This document shows positions 4,601 to 37,798 of a stretch of DNA of 37,798 nt, piece after piece. The notes beneath the pieces are model-generated. The model saw nothing but the letters and a program-made list of their open reading frames with translations. It made no database searches and had not been told where the DNA came from. Position numbers and translations under genes: made by a program. Every line of letters begins with the position of its first letter. Positions within the stretch are counted from its first letter, which is position 1. This DNA comes from Bacteroidota bacterium (GTDB lineage: Bacteria > Bacteroidota > Bacteroidia > M30B66), in contig CANHIS010000027.1 of assembly GCA_947460255.1 (NCBI GenBank), positions 1 to 37,798 of the forward strand, written 5' to 3'.

Positions 4601-5520
4601 GTCCATGTGTAAGTATTGTAACCAGCAGGGCCGGTGAGCACAACGTCGTCGCCCGCGCAAACGGTAGCAACAGAAGCAGTTGGTGTAACTGTAAATGGTG
4701 GATTCACAGTTACCGTGACAGGTATCCGTGGTGATGGACAGCCATTGATCACCGTTTGCACCCAGTAAGTGGTTGTGGTATTTAAGACAGGTGTGGTGAA
4801 ATTTGGCCCAATACCGACAAATGAAGCAGCAGTTTGCGAAACGTACCATTTAATAAGTCCGCCGCCAGTTGCTGTTAATAAAGCAGTTTGTCCAGCACAA
4901 ATCGTAACAGGAGCAACAGAAAGCCCAGGATTGGTTGGATTTGCTACAACCATCACGTTGTAGTCTTCCGTTTCTCCATAGTTTTCGTTGGTGCATGGCC
5001 CTGCAGGCACACCGCTAAAAGCCGACCTTACCCGCATTCTAGTTAAACCTAAGGTTGCAGTAGTTGGGGCTGTGATGGTTCCGTTGAAGGCTTGAAGACC
5101 TGCACTCCCACTGTTAAATGCCATTTCGCAGGAATTTGAAGCATTGTTTTCAAATACTCCATTTTGATCCCAATCTACCCAAATCTTAAATCCTTGAACA
5201 AATGAGGGCCCTGCAATACCTTGAGAACCTTGAACTTGAACTTGAAAAGAACTGCCACGCATAACGGTAACCGTCATGGATGAATTGTAAGTAAAATTTG
5301 AAGGTAAAGTACCGTTACAATTGGTATTTAGGTTAGAAATATTGGTGATCCCGCCCGTAGTTGAGAAATTATTGATGTTATCGTCGGTAACACCCGGATT
5401 AAAGCAGGCATTTGTGTACGAAGGGGTACAGTATTGTGCATATGAAGGCAAGTTGAAAACCAACAACAACACAAAAACCGCTAAAACACTGATAATTCTA
5501 CGTTTGTAGAGTTTCTCCAT
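1672..5520 (-). CDS. Giant adhesin-like protein, GEVED + Ig-like/PKD repeats, T9SS type B tail
   Basis: 1282 residues. A signal peptide (about residues 1-29, ending SYAQ) is followed by a GEVED-type domain (about 110-190: WVDWDQNGVFE, then NYGETEDYNV). Next comes a long series of ~80-residue Ig-like modules whose hallmarks recur: an (I/F)C.G(E/Q) strand, LTASGG, a YLWSNG strand and a T.ANGC strand. A PKD domain near residue 1060-1135 carries YSWSFGDGD. The C-terminal ~88 residues (from YVPGAFSPNEDGLND through FNRWGQRIF to the end) are the gliding-motility-associated type B T9SS domain. By family knowledge it is an exported surface or released adhesin; ligand unknown. It is transcribed away from xseAB and has a clear promoter next to its ATG. 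Internal modules are similar enough at DNA level to permit recombination. Confidence 0.9.
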   Translation of the reverse strand: MEKLYKRRIISVLAVFVLLLVFNLPSYAQYCTPSYTNACFNPGVTDDNINNFSTTGGITNISNLNTNCNGTLPSNFTYNSSMTVTVMRGSSFQVQVQGSQGIAGPSFVQGFKIWVDWDQNGVFENNASNSCEMAFNSGSAGLQAFNGTITAPTTATLGLTRMRVRSAFSGVPAGPCTNENYGETEDYNVMVVANPTNPGLSVAPVTICAGQTALLTATGGGLIKWYVSQTAASFVGIGPNFTTPVLNTTTTYWVQTVINGCPSPRIPVTVTVNPPFTVTPTASVATVCAGDDVVLTGPAGYNTYTWTPAGVFANNLVNPATATIGAATTFTLTVTNAAGCSGSGTVNVGLEAAPPLNIASTDNAICPGEDVTLTASGSSNGYNWLAADGLAASTTASVTVNPSTTTTYSVTANSTSGACPASASFIVVVNPLPTADAGIPTTVCIGSAVQLQATGGGTYSWSPTLGLNNANIANPLASPSFTGSYVVTVTSAEGCTSTDDVLVTVNPLPVADPGTGAANCSGTGAQLSGSGGNIYLWSPSAGLNNPNLPNPLATPATTSNYTLTVTDVNGCVSAPSAPVTVTVFTQPAAPTITASGPTTFCQGGEVTLSASGGVTYLWSNGASGSSITVNTSGSYTVVLTDANGCSSPASAAVVVNVTPGPPVPSIVANGPLVFCQGGNVQLTSSASNSYEWSTGATGVSIIATTSGIYSVTIADALGCESTSLPITVTVNPLPTQPVITAQSAAAFCPGGSTVLQAPAASSWLWNNGAVTQTISVNTTGVFSVTITDANGCSSPVSANFATTLYPTPTAPVITAAGNTTFCQGESVTLSVPTAQSYLWSNGQTTQAITVNVSGVFSVSTVNLNGCQAPTSAPVTVTMNPRPTAPVISAAQTLSFCDGQTVVLNANPTTGITWSTGATTASIEVGATGAYTATYTDANGCLSFASNSLVVTVIPLANTPVITASGPTDVCQGDSVTLSSSAAASYLWSNGSTSNSITVTSSGVYSVTTGSQCPATNMTDNITVQVRPIPVPVISADLVKDCLPSIINFGSSTSGIGPFLYSWSFGDGDYASSSFPSHEYVEAGNYTITLTLTDVIGCSGSQSIPNYIEILPRANLQFSIDPPVTTLSDPLVTFSGLTSNAYNETWEIEGFGIFNNDQVQILFEDTGAYVVTYSAVTSEGCEASKRDTVLVFDEFALYVPGAFSPNEDGLNDIFVPVASGFEVEDFEFQVFNRWGQRIFSTNQIDAGWDGSDAKQDVYIWTITGRSRINKETVEYKGSVTLIH

Positions 5521-32978: not shown

Positions 32979-33020
32979 AAACGCATCTTGATTCTTACGA
33001 ATTTCAAGGTGCGTTTTTTT
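32979..33020 (+). terminator. Intrinsic terminator of the cytochrome gene
   Basis: A 13-bp stem (32979-32991 with 33004-33016, one G-U pair) and a 12-nt loop are followed by a run of T. It overlaps the last 2 bases of the convergent small gene, whose own strand has no T-run here. Confidence 0.88.
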
Positions 33021-33294
33021 ATTCCTTCGACTTCTTTTTCCGAGTGAACTTGCCTTTTTTCTGATAGTATTGTTTAGATCGCATGCGATTTCGAATCGCA
33101 TTGGGATCGGTACTTTGAGATTTTCGAATATGCCCTTTTCGGAATTTTCCACTTCGTGTGATGGTGGGCTTGATGTAAGTACCCGATGATGAACTAGAAG
33201 AGGATGTTGAACAGCCCTTTACGCCAAAGAATACTGCCACCATCATAAAGATGATAAAGTAAAATGTGAAGCATCCTGCTTTGTCCTTTTTCAA
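33019..33294 (-). CDS. Small basic membrane-anchored protein
   Basis: 91 residues from a TTG start at 33294 (LKKDKAGC...), chosen because it yields a basic n-region, a hydrophobic stretch (CFTFYFIIFMMVAVFFGV) and leaves a near-promoter box TATCTTTC (33319-33312) 17 nt upstream. The frame opens at 33366 and an ATG at 33246 is a third choice. After the hydrophobic segment come KGCSTSS and a Ser run; the Cys could be a lipidation site, though Lys before Gly is unusual. The rest is very basic (FRKGHIRKS, QYYQKKGKFTRKKKSKE). Function unknown; a gene of this size could be a false call. Confidence 0.5.
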   Translation of the reverse strand: MKKDKAGCFTFYFIIFMMVAVFFGVKGCSTSSSSSSSGTYIKPTITRSGKFRKGHIRKSQSTDPNAIRNRMRSKQYYQKKGKFTRKKKSKE

Positions 33295-33356
33295 TAGAAT
33301 TGCTTTGGATGGAAAGATATGTGATGATAATCTGATAGTTATGGAATTCTTATGCC

Positions 33357-36242
33357 TCAATCCCAAACAATCCGCTTACTCGAAGTCGGGCCATCCTTAC
33401 TGCTCACGACCAATAAATACAATCCATTGCTGAGGTTCTCGCGATGAATAACTTGTTCATTGCCACTTTGCACCAACTTCCCAGTTGCATCATACAATGC
33501 CCAGTGATTAAGTTCCTTCCAATTAATGAAAATTTGAGTTTGGGCAGGATTTGGAAAAACTTGAATCTTCAGTGATTCATCATTAAGTTGATGGCTGGTG
33601 ATGAGCACCTCAACACACTCACTAGTATCAGAACATCCTGCAACATCTGCCACTACAGCATAACTTCCAGGGGACTCAACTAAGTATTCTTGGATGATAG
33701 CGTTCTCAATGATGGTTCCATCGCAGAAAATCCATTGATAGCTCGCGTTTTCAGGCAGTGCAGTGAGCGTTCCTCCGTTTTCGGTTACCGAAGCTTCTGG
33801 AAGTGCAGTTACGTTTACCGAAATTTCAAGTCTTTCAGATTCCACATTGCAAACCCGAGACGAAGCATAAAAGTTTGAAGATGCATTCAAAATCCCTGTC
33901 GATAATTCTCCACCAGATGCTAAGACATTTCCACCACTAGGTGCATCGAACCATTGCACATCATTTCCTGAAACCTGCAATGTTGTTGATGTTCCTGCAC
34001 ATACTTCCAAAGCCTCTGCACTGCTCGTGTTTTCTGGGATTACAGGGTCTCCACAAACACCGCCACGAATAAAGTAAGGACGAGCATCCTGCAAACAATA
34101 CGTTGCCACGAAAACTTCCCCGTTAAGCTCCTTGATCGTGTTGTACAATCCAGTTTGTGGAACATCATGAATCACCACAGGATTTCCCCAAGAAGTTCCG
34201 TCCGCATCGTTGGCAACAATGGCATACAATTTCAATTTCGGTCCACCTTGATAAACAATGATCGGCTTTCCATTCCAGATGCTCATAGCAGCATACTTTC
34301 CGCCTCCACCGTTAGGTGTAACAGAAACCGGCGTTCCCCAAGTGCTTCCTGCAGCATTTGTGGCGCGAACATATTTGAGTTTGTTGTTGGTTACATCATA
34401 ATAAGCGATCGCGGGAAATCCATTTACTTCTGCCAAGGATGTGTACTGACCCACATTGCCAGGCTCATCAACCAAAACGGCCGTTCCCCAAGAAGTTGCG
34501 GCGGCATTAGTGGATCGAACGTAGCGCAAATTGGCATTCGTTTGATCGTAATGCGCAAAGGCCACCAAGCCATTGATGCGCGCCCAAGAAAGAAAACGAC
34601 CAGAATTTGGAGTGGATTCAGGTGCGAAAACATTGTTCGCCCAAGCCGATCCATCAGTGGCTGAAGCAGCCTTGAAATAGGTTCGGTTGGCATCCGACGA
34701 TAAAAACAAAACCACGGGATTGGTTGAAGGCACCAACAATTGCATTTCAGGCGCTGGTGTTGGATTACTGGAATAAATATAGCTCGTTGCAGCTGGCCAC
34801 GAATTTCCATCAGCATCATTGGCGCGAGAAAACAACACGTATTCATTGTCGCTGTCGTAAAAAACCATCGATGGCCGACCGTCAACCACTTCTAGGTCAC
34901 AGTATTTACCCAAATCATCAGTGGTTTCACCTATCACCAAAGGTGCATTCCAAGTATTTCCAGTGATGTCGGTAGCGCGAACATATTTAGGTTTCCCGTT
35001 GGTTTGGTCGTAATAACAAAGAGCTGGAATGCCATTGATGATCTCAAGTTTCACATGCTCGCCCAGAGCAGAGCTATTGTTCCAGCGTTTAGCAATTTCC
35101 CATTGATTATTGGTCGCTGTAATCCGCTTGCGAAAACACAATCTTCCTCCAATATTTTGCGTGTAAGCTACAGCTGGCTGTCCGTTCAGATCTACAATCC
35201 AATTAAAAGAACCCGAACTGTTTTCGGCATCTACCACCACAGCCGTCGACCAAGCAGAACCTGTTGCATTACTTGCTGTGCTTATCTTTAAACGCGTATT
35301 TGTTTGGTCATAATAACTAACAGTTGGAAATCCTCCAACGAGCGCCATTGCATGGTAAGTGGCGGTTTCACCGGATGTGGATATGAAAATGCTGGTTCCC
35401 CAAGAAGCACCATTGGCATCGGTTGCCCGCACATATTTTACTCTTGTTGATGCAGAAACAAAGTGCGCAATGGCTGGCTGACCATCAACAACCAATAGCC
35501 GAGGATTCGTTCCGCCGGTTTCAACGGCAACCATGGTCGACCAATTATCACCATTGGCATCGGTCGCACGCATGTAACGCAAAGTGGAAGTTCCGGCCGG
35601 ACTGTAAGATAAGGCTATCGCAGGAAAACCATTTACAACAGCCAAGCTGGTTCCTCCAGCAGCTACCGCATTGACTGAAACGAGCGTTTGGGGCGTGTTC
35701 CAAGCATTTCCATTCACATCTGAAGCGCGAACATACCGAAGATCTGAAGCTGTTGCATCATGGTAGCTAATCGCTGGAAAGCCATTTATTATTGCCAAAC
35801 TTGGGAATTTCCCTTGGTTGTTAATTGAATCGATTACAATGGGAGCATTCCAGGTAGCTCCGTCGGGATCTGCAGCTCGAACGTAACGCAAATCGGCATT
35901 GTAGCTGTCGTAGTAAGCAATTGCAGGATGTCCGTTCACGACTTCAAGCGACAAATTCAAACCTACACTTCCACTGTTGTCGACCGTGATCACTTCCGAC
36001 CATTGATTTCCTTGGGCATCTAAAGCATACAGGTATTGCAATCTGGTATGTGTAACATCGTAAAATGCAATGGCCGGCTTTCCATTGACGATCTTCATGC
36101 AATTGTAATGGCCCGTTACACCGGTGCCGCCGATGGTATCAAGAATTTCGACGGGCGTTTGCCAGTTTTGCGCATTTAATGATGGAGTAAGCCAAACACA
36201 AATCAGCGCGAAAAGGCTGTAAAATTTAACTAAATAACTCAT
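33357..36242 (-). CDS. T9SS-sorted protein with 14 propeller-like repeats
   Basis: 961 residues. Signal peptide about 1-24 (ending SLNAQ). About 14 repeats of ~50 residues follow (about 35-755), each with a (V/I)NG.PAI(A/S)YYD strand, a LKYVRATDANG turn and W.TPV. Fourteen units would fit two 7-bladed beta-propellers, which is an inference. Then an Ig-like region with Cys (ALEVCAGTSTTLQVSG, NVQWFDAPSGG, SRVCNVESERLEI) and a second one (SYQWIFCDGTIIENA, AGCSDTSECVEV). The last ~80 residues (IQVFPNPAQTQIFINW, ALYDATGKLV, LSNGLYLLVV, SSKRIVWD) are a type A T9SS sorting domain. Cell-surface localisation is predicted; ligand unknown. TACCTTTC (36275-36268) is a near-match -7 box 25 nt upstream. 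Confidence 0.9.
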   Translation of the reverse strand: MSYLVKFYSLFALICVWLTPSLNAQNWQTPVEILDTIGGTGVTGHYNCMKIVNGKPAIAFYDVTHTRLQYLYALDAQGNQWSEVITVDNSGSVGLNLSLEVVNGHPAIAYYDSYNADLRYVRAADPDGATWNAPIVIDSINNQGKFPSLAIINGFPAISYHDATASDLRYVRASDVNGNAWNTPQTLVSVNAVAAGGTSLAVVNGFPAIALSYSPAGTSTLRYMRATDANGDNWSTMVAVETGGTNPRLLVVDGQPAIAHFVSASTRVKYVRATDANGASWGTSIFISTSGETATYHAMALVGGFPTVSYYDQTNTRLKISTASNATGSAWSTAVVVDAENSSGSFNWIVDLNGQPAVAYTQNIGGRLCFRKRITATNNQWEIAKRWNNSSALGEHVKLEIINGIPALCYYDQTNGKPKYVRATDITGNTWNAPLVIGETTDDLGKYCDLEVVDGRPSMVFYDSDNEYVLFSRANDADGNSWPAATSYIYSSNPTPAPEMQLLVPSTNPVVLFLSSDANRTYFKAASATDGSAWANNVFAPESTPNSGRFLSWARINGLVAFAHYDQTNANLRYVRSTNAAATSWGTAVLVDEPGNVGQYTSLAEVNGFPAIAYYDVTNNKLKYVRATNAAGSTWGTPVSVTPNGGGGKYAAMSIWNGKPIIVYQGGPKLKLYAIVANDADGTSWGNPVVIHDVPQTGLYNTIKELNGEVFVATYCLQDARPYFIRGGVCGDPVIPENTSSAEALEVCAGTSTTLQVSGNDVQWFDAPSGGNVLASGGELSTGILNASSNFYASSRVCNVESERLEISVNVTALPEASVTENGGTLTALPENASYQWIFCDGTIIENAIIQEYLVESPGSYAVVADVAGCSDTSECVEVLITSHQLNDESLKIQVFPNPAQTQIFINWKELNHWALYDATGKLVQSGNEQVIHRENLSNGLYLLVVSSKDGPTSSKRIVWD

Positions 36243-36356: not shown

Positions 36357-37481
36357 CTAAGGAGTGTAGTTAAGGATGATTCGCTCGTTTTGGCGCTTGC
36401 TTGTAATGGTGTTCACTGGATATTTCTTTCGGCCGTTCCGTAACATGAATGCAGCAGTGTTCGGACTAATCGATCCTTCATTGAGTGCTTCTACCAGTAG
36501 GGTGTTCTCGCCAGGTTTTAAGGAGAGCTCTAGGCGTTCTTTTTGAGCAGATAATCCATACGAAAGTAAGATCGGTTCTCCATTGAAGTAAACAGAAATT
36601 GTATCTCCATCGATGTTTGAATTGTCCCACACTTCCAGAATCAACTTCTCATTTTTGAGATCCAATTTCACCTGTTGTCGATCCGGTTTCAACTTCGCTT
36701 CCACGGTAGTGTTCGGCTCATTTTCGGAACGCACGATTTCAGGTTTGCTGCGGCTCTCTTTCCGCCGTTCAGGCTTAATCGATTTAGGCTTCACGGTGCG
36801 ATTTCTCCAAATTTCTGGACTAAACCTCAACACCAATCCCAAATAGTTTAAGTTGGTGGTTGCAGTTGCCTCCGATGTGCCGCTGTTGAGTTGAATGGTG
36901 AGCAAGTCGACATTCGAGAAATTGTACATATAAGTAACACCAATGTCAATATGCATGTGGCGACCTGTTTTTACCAAGCCAATTTCAGGGGTAATAAACG
37001 GTGTAGTAGTGTTCGGAACGTTGGCATTGACGAAGAAAAGTCCTTTGGGTTCTGCCATCGAAGCGGCATGATGGAACTGCAATCCAGTTGTGAAATTGAG
37101 CGCCAATCGCGAATGTGGGTTGTTCTTGAGCGGAAAAATTACGAAAGGTCGAATGGCTGCTTTGAAATCGTACTTGCCCAGAGTGTATTCGGTGCTTCCG
37201 ATGGGCGATCGCATGGTAAAAGTGTAATCTTGATAGTTCACGCCACCTTCAAGGGCGACGCCAGCGCGGTCTTTAACCCGCATCATCAAACCAGTTGAAA
37301 GAGAAAGCGCTGTACCAATTCGCTGGTTGATTTGCGGTTCGCCTGAATTTGAAAAATTTGCCAGCGTGGCACCGAGATTAAAATGAATCGGAATGAAATA
37401 CCGAACAGAAGGGCTCTGTGCTCGACAAATCATGTGTGTTGATGCTACAGCAATAAAAAAGAGGAACGATTTCAAATGCAT
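36357..37481 (-). CDS. Outer-membrane barrel-like protein with C-terminal beta domain
   Basis: 374 residues from ATG 37481 (MHLKSFLFFIAVAS...); an in-frame TTG two codons upstream is less likely. Signal peptide about 1-22 (ending MICRAQ). Residues about 25-215 are barrel-like (FNLGATLANF, LSTGLMMRVKDR, GLQFHHAASM, FITPEIGLVKTG, LNYLGLVLRFSP). A basic linker (KPKSIKPERRKESRSKP) leads to a compact ~95-residue C-terminal domain (LILEVWDNSNIDGDTISVYF, LKPGENTLLVEALNEGSISP, NTAAFML, ERIILNY), recurrent in Bacteroidota envelope proteins. Function unknown. The start codon and first signal-peptide codons lie inside the hairpin of the upstream gene's terminator. Confidence 0.8.
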   Translation of the reverse strand: MHLKSFLFFIAVASTHMICRAQSPSVRYFIPIHFNLGATLANFSNSGEPQINQRIGTALSLSTGLMMRVKDRAGVALEGGVNYQDYTFTMRSPIGSTEYTLGKYDFKAAIRPFVIFPLKNNPHSRLALNFTTGLQFHHAASMAEPKGLFFVNANVPNTTTPFITPEIGLVKTGRHMHIDIGVTYMYNFSNVDLLTIQLNSGTSEATATTNLNYLGLVLRFSPEIWRNRTVKPKSIKPERRKESRSKPEIVRSENEPNTTVEAKLKPDRQQVKLDLKNEKLILEVWDNSNIDGDTISVYFNGEPILLSYGLSAQKERLELSLKPGENTLLVEALNEGSISPNTAAFMLRNGRKKYPVNTITSKRQNERIILNYTP

Positions 37482-37512
37482 GTTCAACGCTTTACAGAAA
37501 TCGTTCCTCTTT
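37458..37512 (-). terminator. Terminator hairpin overlapping the next gene's start
   Basis: A perfect 16-bp inverted repeat: minus-strand AAAGAGGAACGATTTC (37512-37497) and GAAATCGTTCCTCTTT (37473-37458), with a 23-nt loop, then TTTATTG. It begins 10 nt after the stop of the thioredoxin-like gene (37523). The ATG at 37481 lies in the loop, and the 3' arm and T-tract encode part of the next signal peptide. Confidence 0.85.
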
Positions 37513-37522
37513 GAATGATCTG

Positions 37523-37798
37523 TTACTTCGAGGCAACAGCGGCCTTCATGCCGTCAACACCTGTTTTTAAGAAGGTGAGATAAGTGTTTTTATCAGTGTA
37601 ACCTACTGGCTCAGCCAATAAATTCCCTTGCGGGGATAAGACCACATATTGTGGCTGCGAGTTCGACTTAAAATTCACGATTTGCAAGTTGCTCCACTTG
37701 TTTCCAACTGTTTTCACACGTTTTCCGGTAAGACAAGAAGTAAACTGCTCTTCTGCAGGCAGCTCTTTTTTCTCATCTACATAAAGTGAAACCAAAAC
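37523..37798 (-). CDS. Thioredoxin/DsbD-like protein, C-terminal part (5' truncated)
   Basis: The frame runs off the end of the window; the last complete upstream codon is GTT (37798-37796) and the TTG at 37795 is internal. The 92 visible codons (91 residues plus the stop) read VLVSLYVDEKKELP, KTVGNKWSNLQIVNF, SNSQPQYVVLSPQGNLL and PVGYTDKNTYLTFLKTG. This matches the C-terminal thioredoxin-fold half of DsbD-like/cytochrome c biogenesis thiol-disulfide interchange proteins of Bacteroidota, including the cis-Pro segment QPQYVVL. The CxxC active site would lie upstream, outside the window. Likely a periplasm-facing redox protein. It is followed by a strong terminator hairpin. Confidence 0.75.
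   Translation of the reverse strand, partial: VLVSLYVDEKKELPAEEQFTSCLTGKRVKTVGNKWSNLQIVNFKSNSQPQYVVLSPQGNLLAEPVGYTDKNTYLTFLKTGVDGMKAAVASK

Follow-up and report, generated by a model that had tools for sequence, protein, structure and literature searches.

Just past the stop codon of a dsbD-like gene, on the minus strand, lies a perfect inverted repeat, hereafter T1, that has the anatomy of an intrinsic terminator, encloses the ATG at which the next gene starts and, with its 3' arm and T run, encodes part of that gene's signal peptide. Both the terminator-like anatomy and the overlap with the signal-peptide codons are real. T1 is most likely an internal terminator that leaks and, in addition, masks the start of the next gene, an arrangement that would keep expression of that gene low and linked to dsbD; we give this reading a probability of roughly one half. 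The window, that is, the whole 37,798-nucleotide stretch analysed here, corresponds to the entire contig C27, which breaks off within dsbD; the genome measures 4.13 Mb.

The 3' end of the dsbD-like gene (37523–37798, minus strand) is present in the window as a 91-aa frame cut by the contig end, and a complete copy of 678 aa is found on an overlapping strain-variant contig, C155, which also carries the upstream operon. The two contig ends share the last 594 bases of the window (window 37205–37798 and C155 6530–7123) at 97% identity and probably represent two strain haplotypes in one metagenome bin. The downstream gene, putatively of outer-membrane type and termed barrel-like (36357–37481, minus strand), encodes a protein of 374 aa whose N-terminus, MHLKSFLFFIAVASTHMICRAQS, resembles a signal peptide. 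This protein matched no Pfam family, and the label ‘barrel-like’ is neither confirmed nor rejected because structure prediction from a two-sequence alignment gave an uninformative pLDDT of 30. The neighbouring protein contains a Por_Secre_tail domain, a sign of a Bacteroidota-type genome, and in the window genome a 961-aa secreted-type gene comes after the barrel-like gene. The dCMP deaminase, S41 peptidase, dsbD and barrel-like genes lie on one strand, with a 41-nt gap between the dsbD stop and the barrel-like ATG; the first three names, as well as the cytochrome c biogenesis/DsbD membrane domain and the thioredoxin domain of the dsbD-like product, were assigned from sequence. T1 thus has codirectional neighbours with short gaps on both sides, as is characteristic of intraoperonic terminators.

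T1 comprises 55 bases, with a perfect 16-bp stem in which 37512–37497 pairs with 37473–37458. As a previous inspection of the bare sequence (the sequence-only reading) had stated, the hairpin begins 10 nt past the thioredoxin-like stop: the TAA occupies 37525–37523, the spacer 37513–37522, and the non-coding 5' arm, AAAGAGGAACGATTTC, runs from 37512 to 37497. The same reading had correctly placed the ATG of the next gene (37481–37479) within the 23-nt loop (37496–37474). The 3' arm, GAAATCGTTCCTCTTT (37473–37458), begins with the third base of codon 3 and reaches codon 8 (Leu-Lys-Ser-Phe-Leu-Phe), and the T6 run that would form the U-tract (37460–37455) supplies codons 8–9, Phe-Phe. The overlap of arm and T-tract with coding sequence claimed earlier is therefore real, with the small correction that the arm ends in codon 8 and that Leu-Lys-Ser-Phe-Leu-Phe-Phe represents codons 3–9 of the N-terminus MHLKSFLFFIAV... 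encoded by the arm and the T run together. The first three bases of the T6 run form the outer pairs of the stem and three further T's lie beyond it; an A-tract precedes the stem, which consists of a 13-bp core, or 16 bp when the A-U extension is counted, and the stem is followed directly by the U-rich tract, as in an intrinsic terminator.

Chance does not account for the stem. When perfect stems of at least 10 bp with loops of 3–30 nt were counted, the longest in the window had 16 bp, and none of 12 dinucleotide shuffles of the window yielded a stem longer than 12 bp. The predicted fold energy of the 101-nt region containing T1 is −33.8 kcal/mol (z = −4.8), a value equalled by none of 200 shuffles. 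The 23-nt main loop, being long for an intrinsic terminator and above the 3–13 nt of the TransTermHP rule (quoted in PMC12207403), counts against the leaky-terminator reading. A small inner helix predicted within the loop pairs part of the AUG, makes the loop partly double-stranded and leaves an apical loop of 5 nt, and some other terminator-like hairpins in the genus sample have loops of 15–24 nt. Those hairpins come from 638 kb of background sequence, made up of the window, a further 23 pieces of its genome and 140 kb of the sister species G001, in which strong A-tract/stem/T-tract hairpins typically come after stop codons and 57 gene ends carry terminator-like hairpins at a median stop-to-stem distance of 19 nt.

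In this sample, a start codon spanned by a terminator-like hairpin was found only at the T1 locus and its G001 orthologue. The earlier statement that dual use of DNA as terminator and coding sequence is rare is thus borne out within the genus sample, at one locus in 638 kb; the word rare is safe and an exact rate is not, because the gene calls are approximate (340–386 genes). The start of the barrel-like gene is also predicted to be folded more strongly than other starts, as expected if it were masked: its −35 to +35 region folds at −24.9 kcal/mol, ranking 1 of 386 genes (mean −8.5, s.d. 3.9). Across the window, C155 and G001, the corresponding energies range from −23.5 to −26.3 kcal/mol, and opening of −16 to +15 is predicted to cost about 18–19 kcal/mol in all three. 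The G001 orthologue ranks 102 of 386 when scored at an upstream ATG and folds at −23.5 kcal/mol at the orthologous ATG.

The start codon may be misassigned: an upstream start would make the entire hairpin coding, and a downstream start would leave the 3' arm non-coding. In favour of misassignment, the frame is open for 24 codons upstream in the window, three of the four variable loop positions are synonymous in the upstream frame, and an in-frame ATG occurs in G001 at the foot of its 5' arm. Yet no upstream start is conserved in the window and C155, and no start codon between codon 1 and the end of the signal peptide is common to all copies. The in-frame TTG at 37487 was tried as an alternative start and rejected, as it is CTA in C155. 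We regard a misassigned start as very improbable. The additional ATG of G001 (L062 4971–5000) is a possible second start that would read MRNDFCKALS-MHLK...; it is created by the same change that removes an A-U pair beside the core of the stem.

A scan of genome contigs and of 395 genomes of the class found G001 as the only close orthologue. Its sequence is identical to L062 across the compared 4.1 kb, and its barrel-like protein is 89% identical to that of the window. G001 keeps the 13-bp core, the ATG in the loop and the arm-encoded signal peptide. The 13-nt core of the 5' arm, GAGGAACGATTTC, is identical in G001 (13/13) and in C155, whose copy of the hairpin has arms identical to those of the window and three differences in the loop. 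In G001, a T occupies the A-tract position beside the core; this breaks the adjoining outer A-U pair, and the G001 stem therefore consists of the 13-bp core rather than 16 bp.

The surroundings of the core have changed more. Only 4 of 11 aligned columns are identical in the spacer between dsbD and T1, and fourfold sites in the barrel-like gene are 56% identical between the window and G001; at that rate, 13 unchanged non-coding bases have a probability near 6e-4. The coding half taken alone is unexceptional. Codons 3–12 of the barrel-like gene are unchanged, whereas nearly all of the next 18 are changed and the signal-peptide stretch that follows the unchanged codons has diverged (36/61). Runs of unchanged codons longer than codons 3–12 occur elsewhere between the window and G001, and 62-column stretches reach or exceed its similarity in 176 of 2945 cases. 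Constraint on the non-coding arm suggests selection on T1 pairing and falls short of proof, as no compensatory changes are found in the arms among the window, C155 and G001. Covariation could not be seen because the arms are unchanged except for the one outer A-U pair. Nor is the constraint clearly on pairing alone, given that the loop segment preceding the ATG has changed hardly more than the arms: of the two loop differences in G001, only one lies in this leader part. The comparison of arms across relatives proposed in the sequence-only reading hence shows pairing and start retained in a second species, without visible covariation.

The same data bear on the alternative that T1 is a plain dsbD terminator whose overlap with the next gene is accidental. 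The barrel-like gene would then have its own promoter in the 3' end of dsbD, and its mRNA would start inside or after the 5' arm, leaving the stem unable to form and the gene free of regulation by it. T1 sits where terminator-like hairpins of this genus usually do, Phe codons arise naturally from a T-tract and suit a signal peptide, and a distant homologue in G007 has a separate upstream region. However, no conserved promoter-like sequence was detected upstream, and it is the leader from the 5' arm to the ATG that is conserved, whereas the 10-nt spacer, the expected site of a −7 element, has diverged. The promoter search found no Bacteroidota-type promoter within 600 nt upstream in the window or in G001, using a strict consensus that could miss one. 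We consider accidental overlap somewhat unlikely.

Gene order bears on how T1 came to its present position. Family genomes with contigs that extend this far share the dCMP deaminase–S41 peptidase–dsbD order, with short gaps, and the genes that come after dsbD differ between them. In the congeners G003 and G004, another hairpin, T2 (GACAGATTGGGAATCGCATTCCCAATCTGTC and a diverged copy), lies directly after dsbD, and in G001, T2, with an A-tract and a T-tract, comes after the barrel-like gene. T2 (GACARATYGGGAATCGCATTCCCRATYTGTC) was located at L062 6155–6201 and directly 3' of the dsbD stop at L034 and L035 (both minus strand). It is absent after the barrel-like gene in the window genome, and no other palindromic copy with up to two mismatches was found in ten family genomes. 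From these positions, the barrel-like gene and T1 sit between dsbD and the terminator of the cluster, a placement that arose either by insertion in the G000/G001 line or by loss in G003/G004. T2 is also a small, clear case of a terminator that is retained although different genes precede it. At two positions of the stem, paired changes distinguish its three copies (A-T to G-C and G-C to A-T), a covariation that T1 does not have.

T2 could be the true operon terminator, T1 having arrived with the barrel-like gene as a leader that acts mainly on translation or mRNA stability (as a processing site or exonuclease barrier) and terminates little. The place of T2, after dsbD in G003/G004 and after the barrel-like gene in G001, fits this idea, as if the gene and T1 lay upstream of the old terminator; the long loop and the very structured start fit it too. 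Against it stand an A-tract and a T6 run, both hallmarks of terminators, the conservation of the T run, the absence of T2 behind the barrel-like gene in the window genome and the absence of such a leader from the G007 homologue. We find this alternative quite unlikely.

The G007 protein is the nearest of the more distant homologues (41%). It has a signal peptide, and its gene is located away from dsbD, with its own upstream region and no start hairpin; for this reason T1 goes with the dsbD neighbourhood rather than with the gene family. The sequence-only reading had named, as a finding that would speak against it, a relative that keeps the signal peptide and loses the pairing. G007 is the only such case, and its gene does not lie beside dsbD; overall, the earlier interpretation is partly supported. 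Separately, small basic proteins encoded near dsbD in the window (33019–33366) and at the L113 locus (5055–5333) of G005, which represents another genus of the family, have a KPxITRxGxFRKGH motif in common, which suggests that a neighbourhood of the small basic protein and dsbD was once contiguous.

A role at the DNA level, as an invertible start segment or a protein-binding palindrome, would account for the long perfect inverted repeat around the start codon. The loop orientation is, however, identical in the window, C155 and G001, by which we rejected inversion, and a segment of 23 bp would be very short for DNA inversion. A dispersed repeat was likewise rejected: the 5' arm and loop are found only at the T1 locus (in the window contig, C155 and G001) and are not repeated elsewhere in ten family genomes. 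We regard a DNA-level element as hardly credible. At the RNA level, no Rfam family matched T1 above threshold, with a single sub-threshold match to mir-191. An antiterminator fold was also rejected, as no 8-nt segment that lies upstream of T1 and is complementary to its stem-loop is common to the window and G001; the lone match was a U-run in the window.

We return to the leaky-terminator reading, in which T1 probably limits both the transcription of the barrel-like gene and its translation. The sequences themselves show the anatomy, its rarity in the genus sample, its conservation in a second species, the operon-like gene order and the extreme predicted structure at the start; from these we infer that T1 terminates, is read through, masks the start and is coupled to the translation of dsbD. 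T1 would act as an intrinsic terminator just past dsbD and end most transcripts of the dCMP deaminase–S41 peptidase–dsbD operon. Polymerases that read through would produce an mRNA in which the T1 stem encloses the start codon of the lineage-specific barrel-like gene, and this enclosure would keep translation of the barrel-like protein low. As the stem starts 10–14 nt past the dsbD stop, a ribosome following closely behind RNA polymerase on dsbD could hinder its formation, which would tie readthrough to dsbD translation; this part of the model assumes that ribosome and polymerase are coupled in the window organism. The outcome would be low expression of the barrel-like protein linked to dsbD. 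A stronger version, in which one RNA hairpin serves either termination or translation initiation but never both, forming a natural single-hairpin device by which the level of a downstream envelope protein is set by the ribosome–polymerase distance at the end of dsbD, is speculative and, in our judgement, unlikely.

Each component has precedents. Where a terminator lies several bp past a stop codon, a closely following ribosome represses it almost completely, and at distances beyond about 30 bp its activity is full; terminators can also function when they lie within the initial 100 bp of a coding region (PMC4824070). T1 resembles the lambda tR2 series of that study in its short stop-to-stem distance, at which a terminating ribosome lowers termination; that series was measured in E. 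coli with engineered spacers, whereas the 10–14 nt of T1 were read from an uncultured Bacteroidota-type genome. Internal terminators set gene ratios within operons, for example in the ABC importer operons of Ruminiclostridium cellulolyticum (PMC9045158), where, as at T1, a stem-loop lies just past an operon gene and the next gene on the same strand is expected to be reached via readthrough only. The R. cellulolyticum stem-loops are described as intergenic, in contrast to T1, known from sequence, where codons of the next gene make up the 3' arm and U-tract and the loop holds the start of that gene. Control of transcription as well as translation by a single hairpin is known from the pT181 repC attenuator (PMC5435934), which can terminate and also mask translation initiation of the next gene. 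There, the ribosome-binding site lies in the 3' half, the start codon 12 nt further, and the switch is made by an antisense RNA and an antiterminator; for T1, no antiterminator was found and no antisense RNA is known. Finally, candidate E. coli attenuators no more than 15 nt from a start codon were proposed to have a terminator hairpin that also sequesters initiation (PMC2965389), and the authors noted in 2010 that no case had been experimentally demonstrated at that date. Those candidates lie near a start, whereas T1 spans one and would also end the transcript of another gene.

T1 is thus best seen as a novel form of internal terminators and start-masking hairpins, whose component parts are already known. 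Should it work on transcription and translation alike, T1 would unite termination and start masking in a very compact natural form; hairpins of this class were put forward in 2010, with no case then demonstrated (PMC2965389), and the pT181 hairpin was later used to examine them (PMC5435934). A further consequence would be that the U-tract and arm of a terminator can double as signal-peptide codons, and terminator finders that exclude coding sequence would consequently miss such sites.
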